This document shows positions 32,156 through 41,988 of a stretch of 64,000 bases of DNA, in pieces. This DNA comes from Thermodesulfobacteriota bacterium (GTDB lineage: Bacteria > Desulfobacterota > GWC2-55-46): assembly GCA_030583865.1 (NCBI GenBank), contig CP129479.1, positions 1,066,744 through 1,130,743 on the forward strand, in the 5' to 3' direction. Within the stretch, counting starts at the first letter, position 1. Each line of letters begins with the position of its first letter. Under the pieces are notes generated by a model. That model was given only the letters and a program-made list of their open reading frames with translations, searched no databases and was not told where the DNA came from. Both the position numbers and the translations under genes were made by a program.

Positions 32156-33457
32156 TTGGAAAAGCAGCAAAAAACAGCGGCTGTGCTTGACGGCCTGATG
32201 ATCGCAAAAAAAACGTCGGGCAGGTGGGGGGCGGCGGTTGCCTCGGTTGTCGTTTCCGCGGCGGCATTCGCGTACATGTTTTTTAGTGGCGACTCGATTG
32301 AGAGCGCCCTGTACCTGGCGCTCTGGTCGGTGTTCGCAGTCTTCGTCGCGGCTTTCGCATCGAGGAGCCGCGGCGTGATGCTCTCAGAGCTCAAGGACGA
32401 GGAGCTGGTAAGGGAGCTTGCCGAAAGGACGATCCACTATAGCTCGAGGAAGAAAAGGCTCACGAAGTTCTTCAGCTCGCAGCATGACTTGAATAGCCTT
32501 ACCCGGAGCCATCTCTCCGAGGTCATAGACGAGACGGGCACGGCGGCCGGGAGGATAATGAACCAGTCGCAGCGCATAGATTCCGCGATGTGCCAGATGC
32601 AGGGCACGATCGAAGGGCTGCAGGCCGAGAGCAAGGCCATGGCCAGGGCAACGGGCGAGACCATCGCCAGGAACGAGGCCAACATAGCGGGACTGAAGGA
32701 ATACATCGGGAAGCGCAGGGCAGACGTGGAGGAAGACTACAGGACCGTGCTGGCCCTGGCCGATGAGGCGAGGTCGATGACGAGCCTAGTGGACCTCCTG
32801 AAGGGCATAAGCGACCAGACTAACCTCCTTGCCCTCAACGCCGCCATAGAGGCCGCAAGGGCGGGCGAGCACGGAAGGGGCTTCGCCATAGTCGCGGACG
32901 AGGTAAGGAAGCTTTCGAAGAACTCCGAGGAGGCCGCCGGAAAGATAGGCAAGGCCATGATAAAGATGGCGGAGGAGATAGAGACGAAGTTCGCGCTCAA
33001 GCTGAACCAGGACAGGCACGCCGGGGAATCGTCGCTCCTCCTTGACCTCCAGAGCCAGCTCTCGTCGCTCGGCGAGGGCTACCGGAAGCTCGACAATCTG
33101 AACAGGCAGATACTTGAGCAGGTGGGCGAGAGCGGGGCCCAGGTCTCGGCGGAGGTCCTCGAGCTCATAGCCGGGGTGCAGTTCCAGGACATAGTCCGAC
33201 AGCAGATAGAGCTCGTGATAAAGACCCTCGCCGACTCCGACCAGTACATGAAGAGCATCGAAGGGTGCCTCGAGGAAGGGCACCTCTGCGAGGAGGAGTG
33301 CAGGATAGGCGAGTTCGGCATAGAAAAGGTGCGAGAGCACTACGTCATGGAGAGGCAGCGGGCAACCCACAACTCGTTCATCGATTCAAATGGCGATCCT
33401 CGAACCCACGCGCCGGCCAAGGCCGCGCCGGATGAGGGCAACGTCGTCTTTTTTTAG
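32156..33457 (+). CDS. Methyl-accepting chemotaxis protein, two adjacent TM helices
   Basis: A 433-residue receptor opening the chemosensory operon. Two hydrophobic segments lie close together near the N-terminus (about residues 24-43 and 50-68) with only a few residues between them, so there is no periplasmic ligand domain and the protein probably senses an intracellular or membrane signal. The signalling tip is unmistakable: [20 protein letters not shown], followed by [21 protein letters not shown]. After the tip it continues through [14 protein letters not shown] with an extended C-terminus rich in Cys and Glu ([12 protein letters not shown]). Start is TTG at 32156 after GGGGGTAACGG. Confidence 0.88.
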
Positions 33458-33475: not shown

Positions 33476-33844
33476 ATGGCCAAGACAATAATGGTGGTCG
33501 ACGACTCGGCTTCGATAAGGCAGGTCATGAACCTGACCCTCAAGAAAGCCGGATACGACGTTATCGAGGCCAGCGACGGCTCGGACGCGCTCGGAAAACT
33601 CGGCGCCCAGAAGATAAACCTCATAGTCTGCGACGTGAACATGCCCAACATGGACGGCATCACTTTCTTGAAGAGCCTGAAGGAGAAGCCGACCCACAAG
33701 TTCACGCCAGTCATCATGCTCACGACGGAGTCGCAGGAATCGAAAAAGCAGGAAGGCAAGGCGGCCGGGGCCAGGGCATGGATAGTAAAGCCCTTCAAGC
33801 CCGAACAGATGCTCGAGGCGGTCTCGAAGCTCATATTGCCTTAA
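33476..33844 (+). CDS. cheY: Chemotaxis response regulator
   Basis: A 122-residue stand-alone receiver. Acidic pocket MVVDDS (D9, D10), phospho-acceptor D53 in VCDVNMPNMDG, switch Thr in IMLTTESQ and Lys in WIVKPFKPEQ are all present. No output domain, as in CheY. It is the second gene of the operon, 18 bp after the receptor, and likely relays phosphate from the CheA in the same operon. No flagellar genes occur nearby, so the output could be flagella, pili or another behaviour. Confidence 0.94.
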   Translation: MAKTIMVVDDSASIRQVMNLTLKKAGYDVIEASDGSDALGKLGAQKINLIVCDVNMPNMDGITFLKSLKEKPTHKFTPVIMLTTESQESKKQEGKAAGARAWIVKPFKPEQMLEAVSKLILP

Positions 33845-33857
33845 GGTGGAGAAACCT

Positions 33858-34169
33858 ATGCCGGTACACATCGGGAAAGACGCGGGGAACGGGTCCATAA
33901 GCGTGGAAGGCGAGATGAACATCTACTTCGCCAATGAGCTGAAGGAAGGGCTCATGAAGGCCGTGGAGGGGAAAGGCAGCGTGAGTCTCGACCTTTCGGG
34001 GGTCACAGAGATGGACTCTTCGGGGCTCCAGGTATTGCTCCTGGCGTGGAGGGAGGCGAACAGGAACGGCGTGCCGTTCAGGCTTACGGGCGCAAGCACC
34101 CCGGTCGACGAGGTCCTCCGCCTCTTCGACCTCAAGAAGCTCTTCTGCGAAGACATGGAGACTGCGTAA
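33858..34169 (+). CDS. STAS-domain protein
   Basis: A 103-residue single STAS domain (MPVHIGKDAGNGSISVEGEM, LDLSGVTEMDSSGLQVLLLA). The DSSG segment is the usual anti-sigma-factor antagonist phosphorylation site with a conserved serine. Stand-alone STAS genes between cheY and cheA are seen in some chemosensory operons of delta-proteobacteria, probably in scaffold or phosphate-signal roles. I start at the ATG at 33858 (AGGTGGA upstream). The stop overlaps the cheA start (TAATG). Confidence 0.85.
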   Translation: MPVHIGKDAGNGSISVEGEMNIYFANELKEGLMKAVEGKGSVSLDLSGVTEMDSSGLQVLLLAWREANRNGVPFRLTGASTPVDEVLRLFDLKKLFCEDMETA

Positions 34170-36325
34170 TGGAAATAGACCTCGGACAGGCGAAGACGAC
34201 CTTCCTGGCGGAAAGCCAGGAGCTCCTCGAGGAGATGGAGAGCTCGCTCCTCATCCTGGAGCGGGACCCCGCCGACCAGAACGCCATAAACTCCCTTTTC
34301 AGGGCCGCCCATACGATAAAGGGCTCTTCGGGAGTCCTCGGCATCGAGACGGTCGAGAAGTTCACCCATCTCGTAGAGAACCTCCTTGAGAAGATGAGGA
34401 CCGGCCAGATAAAGTCGGATTCCGGCAATATAGAGCTCCTCCTCCAGTGCAGGGACCACATCTCCAGCCTCATAGCGCTCGCCGCGGACGAAGTCGAGGG
34501 GCTCTCCGGAGACCTCCTCAGGGCCGGCAATGAGCTCTCGGCGAGGCTCGCCGCGTGCCTGGACGAAAAGGATGACGCGCCGGCAGCTCAAATTGAAACG
34601 CCCGAGGCCCTGGGGGGACCGAGCTCCAGGACCGACGCATGGCACATATCCGTCAGGTTCGGAACGAACACCTTGAAAACAGGTATGGACCCCATATCCT
34701 TTATCGCCTATCTGGCGAAGATGGGCGAGGTCGTAAGCATAACCACGCTCTTCTTCTCCATGCCCGGGCCCGAGGAGATGGACCCGGAGGACTGCTATCT
34801 CGGTTTCGAGATAGACCTTAAGAGCGATTTCGACAAGAAGGCCATCGAGGACGTCTTTGATTTCGTGCGGGACGAATCGACCATCCGCATCCTCCCTCCT
34901 TACAGCAGGGTGGCCTCTTACGTGGAGCTCATAAAGGGCATGCCCGAGGACGCGCTCCTTTTAGGCGAGATACTCGTCAAGGGCGGCGTGCTAACGGCCG
35001 GCGAGCTCGAGGAGGCGCTCAAGTACCAGGACGAAAGCCAGGCCGCGGAAAGGCCGCGCATAGGGGAGATACTCGTCGAAGAGGGCGCGACTTACCCTGA
35101 AATAATAAACGCCGCTCTTGAGAAGCAGAAGAAAAACCAGATAGTAAGCGCGAAAGAGGCAGCGACGGTAAGGATTGACGCCGCCAAGCTCGACTCCCTC
35201 ATGAACCTCGTCGGCGAGCTCGTAATAGCCGGGGCGGGCATCGACCAGCACGCCGGAAGGATAGGCGACACGGCCCTGCAGGAGTCGGCCTCCATAATGC
35301 TCCGGCTTGTCGAGGAGATAAGGGAGAGCGCCATGAAAGTGAGGATGGTCCCCATAGGCGAGACCTTCAACCGCTTCAGGAGGGTGGTGAGGGACATAAG
35401 CAAGGAGCTCGGCAAGGAAATAGAGATTTCCATAAGCGGCGCGGAGACGGAGCTCGACAAGAACGTCATCGAGAAGATAAGCGACCCTCTCATGCATCTT
35501 GTGCGGAACGCCGCGGACCACGGCATCGAGACGACCGAGGCCAGAAAGGCCGCCGGGAAGAGAGCGTCCGGGACCATACGCCTGAAGGCGGGCCACGACG
35601 CCGGGTGCATAGTCATCGAGGTCGAGGACGACGGCAGGGGGCTCGACCGCGAGAAGATCGTCGAAAAGGCGGTTGCAAGGGGGCTCGTAGCCGCCGGGCA
35701 GCAGCTCACGGACGCGGAGGCCTTCAAGCTCGTGTTCGAGCCCGGTTTCTCGACCGCCGACGAGGTCACGAAGTTCTCCGGAAGGGGCGTCGGCATGGAC
35801 GTCGTGAGGAAGAACATAGAGGCCCTCAGGGGCACGATAGACATGGAGAGCGCAGCGGGCAGGGGCACGACCGTAAGGGTGAGGCTCCCCCTCACAATGG
35901 CCATTATAGACGGCTTCATGGTGGGGATAGGGCAGTCGCCCTACATCATCCCGCTCGACATGGTCGTCGAGTGCGTGGAGTTGACGGAGGAGGACAGGAG
36001 GGCGGCCGGGAAGAGGAATTACGTGAACCTCCGCGGCGAGGTGCTCCCGTTCATAAGGCTCAAGGACTTCTTCAACGAAACCGGCGCGGACTCGAAATAC
36101 GAGAACATCGTCATCGTCCAGTACGCCGGCCACAAGATAGGGCTCGTGGTCGACGAGCTCTTCGGCGAGGTGCAGACGGTAATAAAGTCGCTCGGCAGGG
36201 TCTACCGGGAGGTAAAGGGCATCTCCGGAGCGACCATACTCGGAAACGGCAGGGTCGCGCTGATTCTCGACGTGCCGAGGCTCATGCAGACCATAGAAAA
36301 GAATTATTTCGCGAGGGCGGGGTGA
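34169..36325 (+). CDS. cheA: Chemotaxis histidine kinase CheA with extra middle domain
   Basis: A 718-residue kinase. HPt domain residues 1-110 (FRAAHTIKGSSG, phosphorylated H48). About 155-250 is a CheA-specific alpha/beta region (WHISVRFGTNTLKTG...). About 265-345 contains two copies of a GspE/MshE N-terminal-like motif: LLLGEILVKGGVLTAGELEE and RIGEILVEEGATYPEIINAA. Then dimerisation (KLDSLMNLVGELVIAGAGID), ATPase (DPLMHLVRNAADHGIE, VEDDGRGLD, GRGVGMDVVRKNIE) and the CheW-like regulatory domain. Start ATG at 34169 overlaps the STAS stop. The mid-protein motif pair is unusual for textbook CheA. Confidence 0.93.
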   Translation: MEIDLGQAKTTFLAESQELLEEMESSLLILERDPADQNAINSLFRAAHTIKGSSGVLGIETVEKFTHLVENLLEKMRTGQIKSDSGNIELLLQCRDHISSLIALAADEVEGLSGDLLRAGNELSARLAACLDEKDDAPAAQIETPEALGGPSSRTDAWHISVRFGTNTLKTGMDPISFIAYLAKMGEVVSITTLFFSMPGPEEMDPEDCYLGFEIDLKSDFDKKAIEDVFDFVRDESTIRILPPYSRVASYVELIKGMPEDALLLGEILVKGGVLTAGELEEALKYQDESQAAERPRIGEILVEEGATYPEIINAALEKQKKNQIVSAKEAATVRIDAAKLDSLMNLVGELVIAGAGIDQHAGRIGDTALQESASIMLRLVEEIRESAMKVRMVPIGETFNRFRRVVRDISKELGKEIEISISGAETELDKNVIEKISDPLMHLVRNAADHGIETTEARKAAGKRASGTIRLKAGHDAGCIVIEVEDDGRGLDREKIVEKAVARGLVAAGQQLTDAEAFKLVFEPGFSTADEVTKFSGRGVGMDVVRKNIEALRGTIDMESAAGRGTTVRVRLPLTMAIIDGFMVGIGQSPYIIPLDMVVECVELTEEDRRAAGKRNYVNLRGEVLPFIRLKDFFNETGADSKYENIVIVQYAGHKIGLVVDELFGEVQTVIKSLGRVYREVKGISGATILGNGRVALILDVPRLMQTIEKNYFARAG

Positions 36326-36401
36326 AATGGGCGGCAGGGCTCGTGCGGCGGAATCGAAGGTCTCAAAAAACTTTATAGATGAATGAAGGAGGTTTTTGAC
36401 A

Positions 36402-38102
36402 ATGGATTTCCTGAAGAACATGAAGACGCGGTCAAAGCTTTTTCTTAGTTTCGCGATGCTGATACTCTTTGTCCTGGGGCTCGGGGTCTTGAGCATAGAC
36501 AGGATAACCGGCATGAGGGACGACATACAGTCATTCTATGACGACAGGTTCGTGCCGACCGTCGACCTCGGTAAGATGAACAACGAACTCGCGTCCCTCC
36601 GGATAGGCGCCCTCCAGATAATGAACGAGAGGGACGCATCCAGGAGGCAGCAGCATTACAACAGCGCCACCGAGTCGGAGACCGAGGTGAATAACCTCAT
36701 CGAGAAATACGGGGCCACTTACCTTACGGATGAAGAGAAAAAGGTATTCGACGAAATGAAGGCCGCGTGGGTGACCTATAACGACTCAAGGCGGAACACC
36801 TTCAAGTGGGCCCTCGACGGCGATTTCGAGAGGTCCAGGCACAACGCCCAGACCGACGCGGGGCCTAAGTTCAACTTGCTCGACTCCAAGCTCGTAAGGC
36901 TCATACAGATACAGGACGAGGTGGGCAGGGAGATAATAGCCGAGGCCAACAGCAGCTTCGCCATGACGAGGAACGTGGTTGTGGTGGCTACCATCCTGGC
37001 CATAGGCATCGCCATAACGCTGGCGCTTGTACTCACGAGCCTCATAGCCAGGCCGCTGGCCGAGGCGACCGCCGCGGCGAACAAGCTCGCCCAGGGCGAC
37101 CTCGACGCTGACATCCAGACCGGCGGCAAGGACGAGATAGGCACCCTCCTCGAGGCCATGAAGAACATGGTCGGGAAGCTCCGCGAGGTCGTCTCGGACG
37201 TAAGGGCCGTCTCGGACAACGTCGCAAGCGGCGCGCAGGAGCTCTCAAGCGGCGCCCAGCAGATATCCCAGGGCTCGACCGAGCAGGCGGCGTCAATCGA
37301 GGAGACCTCGTCCTCGATGGAGCAGATGAGCGCCAACATAAGGCAGAACTCGGACAACGCGCAGCAGACCGAGAAGATAGCCCAGAAGTCCGCTGCCGAC
37401 GCGAAGGAGAGCGGGCAGGCGGTTTCCGAGACCGTGGGCGCTATGAAGGAGATAGCCTCGAAGATATCGATAATCGAGGAGATAGCGAGGCAGACGAACC
37501 TCCTTGCCCTGAACGCGGCAATAGAAGCCGCTCGTGCCGGAGAGCACGGGAAGGGATTCGCCGTCGTAGCCTCGGAAGTGAGGAAGCTCGCGGAGAGGAG
37601 CCAGACCGCGGCCGGCGAGATATCGAACCTCTCGGCGACGAGCGTACAGATAGCCGAAAAGGCCGGCGAGATGCTCGCAAGGCTCGTCCCCGACATCCAG
37701 AAGACCTCGGAGCTCGTGCAGGAGATAACCGCCGCGAGCGCGGAGCAGAACTCCGGCGCAGAGCAGATTAACAAGGCCTTGCAGCAGCTTGACCAGGTCA
37801 TCCAGCAGAACGCGAGCGGCGCGGAGGAGCTTGCCTCTACTTCAGAGGAGCTATCCTCCCAGTCCGAGCAGCTCCAGAGGACAATAGAGTTCTTCAGGCT
37901 TTCCGGGGCAGGCGCTTCAACGAGGGAGAAGGTCACCCCTATAAACAAGGCCAGGCAGTCGAAAATCAAGGCGGCCCATCCGGGCCATAACGCAAGCCTC
38001 GGCGCAGGCGCTCACAAGGCCGTTTCCGTCGTAAACAGCCCCGTCAAGCTCAACCTCGGCACCGGCAGGGACGAGGAAGACGGCGAGTTCGTAAAATACT
38101 AA
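36402..38102 (+). CDS. Methyl-accepting chemotaxis protein with 4HB sensor
   Basis: A 566-residue transmembrane receptor. TM1 is at about 13-33 ([17 protein letters not shown]), a periplasmic four-helix-bundle sensor spans about 34-185, and TM2 is at about 188-208 ([20 protein letters not shown]). HAMP follows ([20 protein letters not shown]), then the long coiled-coil signalling domain with tip [20 protein letters not shown]. Likely methylation regions contain [14 protein letters not shown] and [20 protein letters not shown]. The C-terminus lacks an NWETF-type CheR tether. SD AAGGAGG. Located directly after CheA and before CheW. Confidence 0.93.
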
Positions 38103-38114
38103 GGGGAGATGGAC

Positions 38115-38615
38115 ATGAGCGCAGCCGAAGCCGTATCTGAAAACATGCAGTACCTTACGTTCAGGCTCGAGGACGAGGTTTTCGCCCTGGACATAACGCA
38201 GGTGAGGGAGGTGCTCGATTTTACCACGGTCACCAAGGTGCCGAGGACGCCGGACTTCATGAGGGGGGTGATAAACCTCCGGGGAAGCGTCGTGCCGGTT
38301 GTGGACATGCGCCTTAAGTTCGGCATGAGCCGCACGGAGCAGACGGTCAACACCTGCATAATAATCGTGGAGATAAGCCTCGATGGCGAGAAACTCGTCA
38401 TCGGGGCGCTCGCGGACTCCGTGCAGGAGGTCATAGAGATAGAGCCCGGGCAGATAGAGCCCCCGCCGCGCATAGGAACGAGGCTCAATACCGATTTCAT
38501 AAAAGGCATGGGCAAAAGGGACGAGCAGTTCATAATCATCCTGGACATCGACAGGATATTCTCTTCCAGCGAGCTCGCTGTAATAAGCGGCGAACCCGCT
38601 GCCGAGAGCGCGTGA
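38115..38615 (+). CDS. cheW: Chemotaxis coupling protein
   Basis: A 166-residue CheW that bridges receptors and CheA. Characteristic segments: QYLTFRLEDEVFALDITQVR, FMRGVINLRGSVVPVVDMRL and IGALADSVQEVIEIEPGQIE. ATG at 38115 has AGGGGA seven bases before it; an ATG two codons earlier is too close to that site. The stop overlaps the start of cheR. Confidence 0.93.
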   Translation: MSAAEAVSENMQYLTFRLEDEVFALDITQVREVLDFTTVTKVPRTPDFMRGVINLRGSVVPVVDMRLKFGMSRTEQTVNTCIIIVEISLDGEKLVIGALADSVQEVIEIEPGQIEPPPRIGTRLNTDFIKGMGKRDEQFIIILDIDRIFSSSELAVISGEPAAESA

Positions 38616-39511
38616 AGCTGGATAAGGACATGGAATACGCGATAAGACCGGTCGATGAAATGGAACTAACGTCCGCAGGGGGCCTCAAGAGGCTTTCAGA
38701 AGGCGACTTCCAGAGGCTGAGCGCGTTCATCCAGCAGGAGCTCGGGATCAAGATGCCGCCGGCGAAAAAGGCGCTCCTCGAGTCCAGGCTCCAGAAGCGC
38801 CTCCGCGCGCTCGGGTGCAAGACCTTCGCCGAGTACTGCGACACGCTTTTCGGCCCGGGCGGCATGGCGCGCGAGCTGGTCTTCATGCTCGACCTGGTAA
38901 CGACGAACAAGACCGATTTCTTCAGGGAGTCCCATCATTTCGACCTGCTCATCCAGAGCATACTCCCTGCATTGGTCCGCGAGTCGGGCCGCCGCGTCTC
39001 GCTCTGGAGCGCCGGCTGCTCGACGGGCGAGGAGCCGTACACTCTTTCAATGGTCCTGAGCGAGTTCGCGTCAAGCCATCCGGGGCTCGGTTTCGATTTC
39101 GACATAATGGCTACCGACATCTCCACGCGCGTGCTTGAGATGGCCTGCAAGGGTATTTACAAGGAAGAGAGGCTCGCGCCGGTGCCGGAAGGCTTCAGGA
39201 GGCGCTACTTCCTGAGGAGCAGGGACAGGTCCTCGGGCCTCGTCCGGGTCGCGCCGGAGGTGCGGGAAAGAGTCAGGTTCTCGAGGCTTAACCTCATGGA
39301 AGATGAGTTCCCGATCGAAAGCCCGCTCGACATAATCTTCTGCAGGAACGTGATCATCTATTTCAGCAAGGAGACCCAGGAGCGGCTGATGTGGAAGTTT
39401 TGCAGTTACCTCAAGCCGGGCGGGTATCTCTTCCTCGGCCATTCCGAGACCCTGAGCGGCCTCGGGCTTCCGCTAAAGAAAGTGGCCGCGTCCGTCTACA
39501 TGAAGTGCTGA
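38612..39511 (+). CDS. cheR: Chemoreceptor glutamate methyltransferase
   Basis: Methylates receptor glutamates with SAM. The 299-residue protein has the all-helical N-domain (LSEGDFQRLSAFIQQELGIK, LESRLQKRLRALGC), the SAM-binding SAGCSTGEEPYTLSMVL, DIMATDISTRVLEMA and FCRNVIIYFSKETQ. The GTG start overlaps the cheW TGA (GTGA); an ATG six codons in is possible. Pairs with CheB and CheD of this operon for adaptation. Confidence 0.93.
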   Translation: MKLDKDMEYAIRPVDEMELTSAGGLKRLSEGDFQRLSAFIQQELGIKMPPAKKALLESRLQKRLRALGCKTFAEYCDTLFGPGGMARELVFMLDLVTTNKTDFFRESHHFDLLIQSILPALVRESGRRVSLWSAGCSTGEEPYTLSMVLSEFASSHPGLGFDFDIMATDISTRVLEMACKGIYKEERLAPVPEGFRRRYFLRSRDRSSGLVRVAPEVRERVRFSRLNLMEDEFPIESPLDIIFCRNVIIYFSKETQERLMWKFCSYLKPGGYLFLGHSETLSGLGLPLKKVAASVYMKC

Positions 39512-39537: not shown

Positions 39538-40437
39538 ATGCATGACTTTTCGGACCGGGAACTCCTGGCCGTAATCGAAGAAAGGCTTGAGGCGAAGGAC
39601 AGGGCCTACGCGGAGCTCGTCAAGCTTACGGGCAAGCTCGAGGAGCTCAACAGGAAGCTCATCGAGTCGGAGGAGGTCAAATCCAGCTTCCTTTCGAACA
39701 TAAGGAACGAGATCAACAACCCGCTCACCTCTGTCCTCACCATGTCGGAGGTGCTCATGTCGGGCGGCGAGCTGCCGGACAACGACACCCTGAAATCCAT
39801 AATAGGGATGATACACAAGGAGTCCTTCAGCCTCAATTTCCAGCTCCGGAACATCTTCGCCGCCGCCGAGCTCGAGGCCGGCGAGGCGGTGCCCGGGTTT
39901 TCAAGAGTGGACATGGACTCGATACTCAAGGACGCGGTCTCTTCCCTGGGCCACAGGGCGTCGGAAAAGAAGATAACGGTCGGACTTGACGTCCAGGCCG
40001 GGCTTGCCGAGAAGGCCTTCCGGACCGATGCGGAAAAGGTGCACAGGGTAGTCACCAACCTCCTGGCCAATGCCATCGAGTTCAGCCCCGAGGGGGGGGA
40101 CATCTCAATTGCAGCCTCTGCCGAAGACGGGTGGCTCAGGGTGTCGGTAAGGGACCGCGGCCAGGGCATAGACCCCGATGATTTCAAACTGATGTTCGAG
40201 AGGTTCAAGCAGCTTGACAGCGGCGCCTCGAAGCAGCACCTGGGGCACGGCCTGGGCCTTTCGATAGTAAAAGCCACCGTGGACCTCCTGGGGGGGGACA
40301 TATCTGTAGAGAGCAGCCCGGGGAAAGGCGCGCTCTTCACGGTGTCGGTCCCGGAGGCCGACATGGACGTTTCCACAGGCGACATCTCGATGGACGGCGC
40401 CGAGTTCTTCACCCAACCAGAGACCAGAAGGTTCTGA
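39538..40437 (+). CDS. Histidine-kinase-like protein lacking the phospho-acceptor histidine
   Basis: A 299-residue cytoplasmic protein built like a small histidine kinase: coiled coil at residues 12-50, dimerisation helix FLSNIRNEINNPLTSVLTM at 51-69, and an intact ATPase domain (NLLANAIEFSPEGGDI, VRDRGQGIDPDDF, GHGLGLSIVKATVDLLGGDI). In the H box, the position of the conserved histidine is Asn57 (RNEINNPL instead of xHExRTPL), read directly from AGGAACGAGATCAACAACCC. Autophosphorylation at that site is thus impossible. It sits between cheR and cheD, with SD GGGGGG. It could be a pseudokinase regulator, an ATPase, or phosphorylate another protein; that is open. Confidence 0.88.
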   Translation: MHDFSDRELLAVIEERLEAKDRAYAELVKLTGKLEELNRKLIESEEVKSSFLSNIRNEINNPLTSVLTMSEVLMSGGELPDNDTLKSIIGMIHKESFSLNFQLRNIFAAAELEAGEAVPGFSRVDMDSILKDAVSSLGHRASEKKITVGLDVQAGLAEKAFRTDAEKVHRVVTNLLANAIEFSPEGGDISIAASAEDGWLRVSVRDRGQGIDPDDFKLMFERFKQLDSGASKQHLGHGLGLSIVKATVDLLGGDISVESSPGKGALFTVSVPEADMDVSTGDISMDGAEFFTQPETRRF

Positions 40438-40441
40438 CAGA

Positions 40442-40921
40442 GTGCTCCTGAACGCGGTAAAAGCAGGGGGACAGCACTACCTGTACCCGGGGATGCTCTT
40501 TGCCGAGACCGGCCCGCACAGCGTGGTGACCGTCCTCGGCTCCTGCGTCTCGGTCTGCCTGTGGGACCCCGAGAAGAGGGCAGGGGGGATAAACCATTAT
40601 CTGCTCCCATACTGGAACGGAGAGGGCCTGAGGACTCCAAAGTACGGCAACATCGCGGTCCCGAAGCTCATAGAGCGGCTCCTCCAGGCCGGGTGCAGCA
40701 AGTCCAGGCTCGTGGCCAAGGTCTTCGGAGGAGGAGCCGTCCTTGAAAGCTCGGGTATCCTCAACGTCGGGGAGCGGAACATCGCGTTCGCCAGGGGCGC
40801 GCTGGCGGAAGCCGGCATACATATCGCCTGCGAGGACGTCGGCGGAACGCAAGGGAGGAAAATAATGTTCCATACCGGCACCGGAGAGGTGTTCGTAAGG
40901 AAGATAGGGCGGCATGAATGA
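40442..40921 (+). CDS. cheD: Chemoreceptor glutamine deamidase
   Basis: Deamidates receptor glutamines and can modulate CheA/CheC activity. The 159-residue protein has the catalytic Cys35 in [14 protein letters not shown] and His52 in [12 protein letters not shown], plus [21 protein letters not shown] and [20 protein letters not shown]. Starts at a GTG 4 bases after the kinase-like gene. The cheB start overlaps its stop (ATGA). Its presence, without cheC, suggests regulation through CheB or CheY only. Confidence 0.93.
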
Positions 40922-41988
40922 CGAAAAAGACAAAGGTGCTCGTAATAGACGATTCCGCGGTCGTGAGGAAGGTCCTCACGACCATAATAGGCTCGGAGCC
41001 CGACATCGAGGTCGTCGGGGCGGCAAGCGATCCCTTTATCGCGGCAGAGAAGATAGCGCACGACGTGCCTGACGTCATAACCCTCGACGTCGAGATGCCG
41101 CGCATGGACGGCATCACCTTCCTGCAGAAGATGATGAGCCAGCACCCGATACCGACGGTCGTCATATCGAGCCTCGCGGGCAGCGGCTCGGAGACAGCCT
41201 TGAGGGCGCTTGAATACGGCGCGGTCGAGATATTGCAGAAGCCGTCCATCGGCACGAAGGAGTTCCTCGAGGAATCGCGGGTGCTCATATGCGACGCCGT
41301 GAGGGCCGCTTCAGTCGCGAAGCTCAGGCGGGTGCCGGTCCATGCGGCGGCCCCAGCCCCAAAGCTGAACGCGGACGCGGTAATCGCGAAATCCAGGCCC
41401 ACGAAGGCCATGCTCCGGACGACGGAGAAGGTGGTCATCCTCGGGGCCTCCACCGGCGGCACCGAGGCGATAAGCGATTTCCTCATGTCCATGCCGCTCG
41501 ATTCGCCCGGCATAGTCATAGTCCAGCACATGCCCGAGAAGTTCACCGCGTCGTTCGCAAAAAGGCTCGACTCCGCGTGCAGGATATCCGTGAAAGAGGC
41601 CGAGGACAACGATACGGTCATAAGGGGGAGGGCGCTTATCGCGCCGGGGAACAGGCACATGATGCTCAAAAGGAGCGGCGCGAGATATTACGTCGAGATA
41701 AAAGACGGGCCCCTCGTATCCAGGCACAGGCCGTCTGTAGACGTCCTCTTCCGTTCCGCGGCCATGTACGCCGGGAAGAACGCAGTCGGTGTCATACTGA
41801 CCGGCATGGGCGACGACGGCTCTCGGGGCATGAAGGAGATGAAGGAGGCCGGCTCGTTCAATATCGCGCAGGACGAGCGCACTTCGGTCGTATACGGGAT
41901 GCCAAAGGAGGCCATAAAGGCCGGGGCAGTGGACTGCGTGCTGCCGCTTAATGAAATAGCTGGGCGGGTCCTGAAGGAATGCGCTTAG
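40918..41988 (+). CDS. cheB: Chemotaxis methylesterase/response regulator
   Basis: Removes methyl groups from receptors when phosphorylated. Residues 1-125 are a receiver (phospho-acceptor D57 in [13 protein letters not shown]). A linker follows, then the methylesterase domain at about 165-355: [14 protein letters not shown] (catalytic Ser), [18 protein letters not shown] (catalytic His) and [19 protein letters not shown] (catalytic Asp). ATG overlaps cheD TGA. It is the last gene of the chemosensory operon and is followed by a 359-base gap. Confidence 0.95.

Follow-up and report, generated by a model that had tools for sequence, protein, structure and literature searches.

What can a protein with a histidine-kinase fold do in a chemotaxis operon once it has lost the histidine that such kinases phosphorylate? 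This question is raised by a gene in the window, the 64,000-nt stretch that we analyzed within the 2.75 Mb genome G000. Its che operon has the order MCP1, cheY, STAS, cheA, MCP2, cheW, cheR, PHK, cheD, cheB (Table 1), where PHK is the label used here for the kinase-dead protein. The initial annotation had placed this gene between cheR and cheD, where it does lie, and had suggested that it may be a pseudokinase that tunes CheA/CheY, a phosphatase or an ATPase scaffold. Judging from sequence comparisons, we propose that PHK probably arose from a kinase and now regulates CheD, because the acceptor His has been lost, an Asn is kept in its place and a cheD gene is nearly always adjacent.

Table 1. 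Features of the PHK gene and its operon, in window coordinates.
Feature	Position	Strand	Remarks
MCP1	32156..33457	+	MCP without recognized sensor domain; CheZ-like QFQDIVRQQ after the signalling domain
cheY	33476..33844	+	One receiver domain; probable partner, as it belongs to the same operon
STAS-domain protein	33846..34169	+	
cheA	34169..36325	+	Hpt, dimerisation, HATPase and CheW domains
MCP2	36396..38102	+	MCP with 4HB and HAMP domains
cheW	38109..38615	+	Annotation of window
cheR	38612..39511	+	Annotation of window
PHK	39538..40437	+	Kinase-dead HisKA/HATPase_c protein, 299 aa (basis: sequence, Pfam, AF2, Foldseek, alignment)
H box FLSNIRNEINNPL	39688..39726	+	Residues 51-63; Asn57 replaces His; Glu58 and Asn61 keep HisKA ExxN spacing
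N box region NLLANAIEFSP	40057..40089	+	Residues 174-184; invariant Asn178; Glu181 in place of the usual Lys
C-terminal tail of PHK	40354..40434	+	Residues 273-299; recurring G-x-x-F-F element; AF2 confidence low for 279-299
cheD (subfamily CheD1)	40442..40921	+	Fixed 3′ neighbor of PHK, 4 bases past its stop; catalytic Cys and His kept
cheB	40918..41988	+	Annotation of window

The PHK reading frame, which by our own reading of the sequence is preceded by a purine-rich ribosome-binding sequence 5′ of its ATG, encodes HisKA (PF00512; 33.2 bits against a cut-off of 26.9, residues 48-115) followed by HATPase_c (PF02518; 106.4 bits, residues 164-274), both above cut-off and in the domain order of HisKA sensor histidine kinases. 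HATPase_c_2 is barely above its cut-off (27.8 vs 27.4 bits). Pfam detected no sensor domain and no PAS domain in the 299 residues, and CheC, CheX and CheZ (PF04509, PF13690, PF04344) are not among the six Pfam families listed for PHK. An AF2 model built from 31 sequences has a mean pLDDT of 78, with low confidence for the ATP lid (residues 223-237) and the end of the tail, and its best Foldseek matches in the PDB are HK853, HK853-RR468 (3dge), DivL (4q20) and HK853-BeF3-RR468 (5uht).

We collected orthologues at increasing distance from G000. Clear orthologues are present in 24 of 59 relatives, G000 included (E value of 7.6e-59 or better; next match 6.8e-40), and likewise in 24 of the 63 genomes of its class (at least 344 bits; next match 191), and a phylum sample of 395 genomes yielded 15 (at least 307 bits; next 207). 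In the class of a new carrier, G257, 76 of 277 genomes carry PHK, in 78 copies of at least 292 bits. The resulting set of 104 non-overlapping orthologues, all from one phylum, consists of these 24 and 78 together with L089 and L092 from another group; identity to the window PHK ranges from 36 to 93% (median 42%), and full-length frames are kept down to 36%. Those records that carry a name are MAGs of Deltaproteobacteria, plus one ‘uncultured Geobacter’ MAG, and a search centered on the latter gave 14 of 394, the same matches as the phylum sample except the MAG itself, so that it appears to have covered the same phylum.

The H box of the translated frame reads FLSNIRNEINNPL, which confirms that Asn57 stands at the phospho-acceptor position, and the alignment that the initial annotation had called for shows this residue to be fixed: Asn in 103 of 104 orthologues, Tyr in one and His in none. 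Its two caveats, that orthologues might have His and the Asn be a single mutation, or that another His nearby might serve, therefore fall away, as the DHp domain of the family contains no other well-conserved His. The most conserved His residues lie in the ATP lid (position 234 in 95/104, position 237 in 89/104). Such constancy of Asn57 far exceeds chance: the mean top-residue frequency over the 287 alignment columns is 0.59, and every non-orthologous kinase with a letter at the acceptor site has His there (54/54). Codons at residue 57 in 33 orthologues are AAC in 22, AAT in ten and TAC in one. Given the near-invariance of the Asn, the synonymous codons and the His in all other kinases, the alignment indicates that the loss of the acceptor His in the PHK family is old and held by selection. 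The one Tyr, which is also the acceptor-site residue of DivL, is in L034 (genome G001), where the reading frame shifts close to the 3′ end so that the gene runs into cheD; this change is either an assembly error or real.

Around Asn57 the family is strongly constrained. Glu58 and Pro62 are invariant (104/104), Arg56 is kept in 103 and Asn61, at H+4, in 101, with Asp in two and Thr in one, so that by sequence criterion PHK has the acidic and amide ExxN helix motif of CheY~P phosphatases. Of the stretches compared, the H box is the most conserved (mean top-residue frequency 0.94), followed by helix 2 (0.81) and the CA domain (0.61), whereas helix 1 below the H box (residues 64-80) is variable (0.47). 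The ATPase motifs, which had been described as intact in PHK, are so across the family, where the N, G1, F and G2 boxes are present with N178, G208, F220, G236 and G238 in 104/104 each, D206 in 101 and G210 in 102; the invariance of N178, G208, G236 and G238 suggests that ATP binding by PHK is probably kept. We considered whether Glu181, which replaces the usual N-box Lys in PHK and in 94/104 orthologues, is a second kinase lesion through a lost ATP contact, and rejected this because Glu occupies the same position in 20 of 55 aligned His-bearing kinases, a set biased towards the Glu motif as many of its loci were found with the NAIEFSPE pattern; Glu181 is thus no sign of inactivity. In the tail, a loose pattern for the G-x-x-F-F element matches 91/104 sequences.

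CheD is a Gln deamidase that tunes chemotaxis receptors, and its gene is the one constant in the neighborhood of PHK. In the first class it directly follows PHK on the same strand in 23 of 24 loci; the same holds for all 78 loci of the second class and for L089 and L092, so that 103 of 104 PHK loci adjoin CheD1, the remaining locus (L026) ending with its contig; PHK thus has the genetic linkage to CheD of a CheC-CheD-like feedback module. In genomes G1042 and G854, which have two PHK copies each, every copy has its own cheD next to it. The upstream gene, by contrast, varies, being mostly cheR in the first class but elsewhere cheB (L093, L242, L244, L246), a second cheD (L014, L017, L018), an MCP (L095) or another kinase (L090). 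We further inspected 15 second-class regions of 15-16 kb (six around the first loci seen, nine picked on long contigs), and in eight of them (L111, L113, L114, L239, L240, L241, L245, L247) the PHK-CheD pair stands without any other match to ten operon proteins; neighbors in three of these include HDOD, EamA, ferredoxin-like, pseudouridine synthase and DnaB genes. Another che match is likewise lacking from 21 of 76 short PHK loci. The proposal of a pseudokinase, phosphatase or ATPase scaffold remains sensible, but it overlooked the main partner. The fixed neighbor is CheD and not CheA/CheY or cheR: several loci lack an upstream cheR, and PHK-CheD pairs also occur away from che operons.

The linkage is specific to one CheD subfamily. 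In CheD1, Cys35 and His52 are invariant and a W-N-G-x-G-L stretch is present, whereas CheD2, present in some operons, is more distant (34-40% identical to the window CheD) and forms a separate group in the tree. In L089 and L092, the CheD2 beside PHK-CheD1 has its GSC-motif catalytic Cys changed to Ser or Ala, making these apparent pseudo-deamidases. With a CheD1 profile, 23 of 62 genomes of the class score at least 229 bits, all of them carrying PHK; 23 genomes have both genes, 36 have neither and three are cut by contig ends (PHK itself in G058, CheD1-like fragments at the ends of contigs with lengths of 7928 and 4945 in G026 and G018). Counting the three cut cases as mismatches gives a Fisher p of ~1e-13, uncorrected for kinship. 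The operon of G009 (MCP1-cheY-STAS-cheA-MCP2-cheW-cheR-CheD2-cheB) is otherwise complete and lacks both PHK and CheD1. In the genomes searched, the PHK gene and CheD1 are inseparable. An A/S-x-x-E/Q-x-x-A/S sequence, which we take to be a CheD-recognition motif, is present in helix 2 of PHK around Glu111; we made no use of it, as its first position varies freely in relatives.

The operon itself, in which cheD and cheB overlap by 4 bases, lies in a genome, G000, that has four CheA genes. A flagellar cluster carries CheZ (46.5 bits, cut-off 30.7) with one CheA, CheB, CheR, flagellar rod, MotA and MotB genes, and because this cluster has its own CheA, CheB, CheR and CheZ, the window operon is a second system, unlinked to flagellar genes within the annotated stretch. 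In G000 the cheA of the flagellar cluster is broken into two ORFs (L061:10103-11835, - strand), with an open frame of 377 aa vs about 560-640 in many relatives, reflecting a frameshift, an assembly error or a pseudogene. The DxxxQ motif of MCP1 is as in CheZ and recurs in 10 of 12 other loci, with and without PHK; PF04344 matches MCP1 weakly and outside this motif (17.8 bits, below cut-off), and MCP1 could possibly be another, receptor-fused CheY phosphatase of the operon. The family search of the genome found neither CheC nor CheX in G000; among relatives one or the other is above cut-off in 4/24 PHK genomes vs 9/35 others, which gives no clear signal that PHK replaces them. The STAS protein contains a DSSG stretch, presumably the phospho-serine site of SpoIIAA-like proteins, and none of the operon genes is an obvious cognate serine kinase.

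The explanation that we favor, while holding it somewhat short of even confidence, is that PHK is a kinase-dead, receiver-reading and possibly phosphatase-active protein serving as the dedicated partner of CheD1, an unrelated counterpart of CheC in the CheC-CheD pair. Its soluble histidine-kinase fold would no longer autophosphorylate and would instead be devoted to one CheD subfamily. The DHp four-helix bundle would dock a phosphorylated receiver, CheY~P in the first place and CheB~P in the second, and might use the retained ExxN motif to hydrolyze the phosphate; the receiver state would then reach CheD by way of the ATP-bound CA domain and the conserved C-terminal tail, changing the amount of CheD free to act on receptors. 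In its logic such a circuit would match the CheC-CheD feedback loop of B. subtilis, CheC being replaced by an unrelated protein. The conserved Asn57, Glu58 and Asn61, the synonymous codons at residue 57, the adjacency to CheD1, the stand-alone pairs, the joint loss in G009, the co-occurrence and the Foldseek matches to HK853, its RR468 complexes and DivL all support this explanation. Taken together, the precedents of CrdS, DivL and CheC-CheD suggest that PHK most likely controls CheD by reading a receiver, possibly with phosphatase activity of its own. The sequences themselves show the fixed Asn, the conserved ATP site and the inseparable CheD1, from which CheD binding, CheY~P docking, phosphatase activity and feedback are inferred.

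For the phosphatase part a guide is the HisKA kinase CrdS. According to passages of PMC3510030, its H371A variant retains the ability to dephosphorylate the regulator, whose half-life is 2.6 min with this variant, 0.7 min with wild-type CrdS and 53.5 min alone; phosphatase activity strictly requires Asn at H+4, and Glu at H+1 is required for kinase but not phosphatase activity. PHK has both residues. These same data also count against our explanation, as Asp, which abolishes the CrdS phosphatase when placed at H+4, occupies this position in two of 104 orthologues, and Glu58, a kinase-only residue in CrdS, is more constrained than Asn61 (PMC3510030). Further points against it are the variable helix 1 below the H box, DivL, which keeps the fold yet is no phosphatase in the passages of PMC4211667, the presence of CheZ in the genome and of a CheZ-like motif in MCP1, and the finding that PHK genomes are not clearly poorer in known CheY phosphatases.

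PHK might instead regulate CheD1 directly and independently of any receiver, as an ATP-driven clamp or scaffold that contacts CheD through its CA domain or tail while the DHp domain only dimerises. We regard this as unlikely: the top conservation of the H box is unexplained by pure dimerisation, although such a role would fit the conserved ATP site, the variable helix 1 below the H box and the persistence of CheD as the fixed partner in fetched regions devoid of other che genes. That PHK is mainly a CheY~P or CheB~P phosphatase, and the CheD link a matter of shared expression only, we consider improbable. The kept ExxN spacing, with Asn61 in 101/104, the retained phosphatase activity of CrdS H371A (PMC3510030) and the lack of CheC and CheX in G000 suit this idea, but the stand-alone pairs, the joint absence of PHK and CheD1 in G009 and the Asp at H+4 in two orthologues do not, nor do CheZ in the genome, the CheZ-like motif in MCP1 and the lack of clear anti-correlation of CheC/CheX with PHK.

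There is only a slim chance that the CA domain phosphorylates another protein, whether a STAS Ser in the manner of RsbW/SpoIIAB or the His of a mixed-dimer kinase. HATPase_c scores far better than the HATPase_c_2 match that, with the conserved ATP site and the STAS protein of the same operon, would hint at such a kinase; eight of the 15 larger PHK-CheD regions are without STAS or any other che gene, and G009 keeps STAS without PHK. The STAS protein is therefore unsupported as a PHK substrate. We give very little weight to the idea that Asn57 is kept because it is itself a working residue of the PHK-CheD pair, with the DHp domain mimicking a receptor for CheD1, which would bind it and perhaps deamidate Asn57 or a neighboring Asn; if so, a kinase fold would have had its phosphorylation site swapped for a deamidation-controlled switch. 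A decaying kinase or one-codon sequencing error, to which the Tyr and frame change of L034 might point, we dismiss as a reading that is already contradicted by the Asn in 103/104 with synonymous codon changes and by the full-length frames in distant relatives.

Pseudo-histidine kinases are a known kind of protein, of which DivL and RetS are familiar examples, each a single regulator in a well-studied bacterium. Our search of the open-licence PMC literature found no description of PHK or of any kinase-like CheD partner, nor of the Asn, its wide fixation or the tie to CheD. Passages of a Geobacter chemotaxis survey (PMC2577667) note that che clusters contain unidentified genes and that a genome can have up to three cheD, and PHK is absent from passages of PMC11481889 and PMC3447774. 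What sets PHK apart is a widespread one-phylum family in which His loss is fixed and tied to a chemotaxis enzyme, not to another kinase. Should PHK read CheY~P and control CheD, the CheC-CheD loop would have been built at least twice from unrelated parts, and the family is also a clean test of H-box residues once phosphorylation is gone, with the His dispensable and the adjacent Glu not.

Among known systems, the bifunctional HisKA kinases EnvZ, NtrB, CrdS and HK853 share the fold and ExxN/T motif of PHK, but are kinases with His, whereas PHK has neither the His nor a sensor domain. RsbW/SpoIIAB serine kinases are GHKL kinases without HisKA, unlike PHK, which has this domain. CheA3 of Rhodobacter sphaeroides acts in a cytoplasmic chemotaxis system and has a phosphatase part for a CheY, according to passages of PMC6829392. 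It resembles PHK in being kinase-derived, but belongs to the CheA and not the HisKA family. We know of no tie of CheA3 to CheD. DivL of Caulobacter has Tyr550 at the acceptor site, keeps the H, N, G1, F and G2 boxes and, as described in passages of PMC4211667, is neither kinase nor phosphatase, binds ATP weakly and reads a phosphorylated receiver. Like PHK it has a HisKA and CA fold with the acceptor His replaced, is the second best Foldseek match and provides a model of a receiver-reading kinase fold for PHK, but it has Tyr, PAS domains and a CckA partner where PHK has Asn, no sensor domain and linkage to CheD.

Placed by eye against CheC-type CheD proteins, the window CheD seems to carry Val-Leu at the position of their Met-Phe. 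In B. subtilis CheD this Met-Phe is M101/F102, and CheC binds CheD more strongly in the presence of CheY~P, controlling it by competition with receptors, while the phosphatase activity of CheC matters little (passages of PMC3513319). Although PHK has no Pfam match to CheC or CheX, PHK-CheD1 resembles the CheC-CheD pairs of B. subtilis and T. maritima in that a CheY-related activity, predicted for PHK, is paired with CheD.
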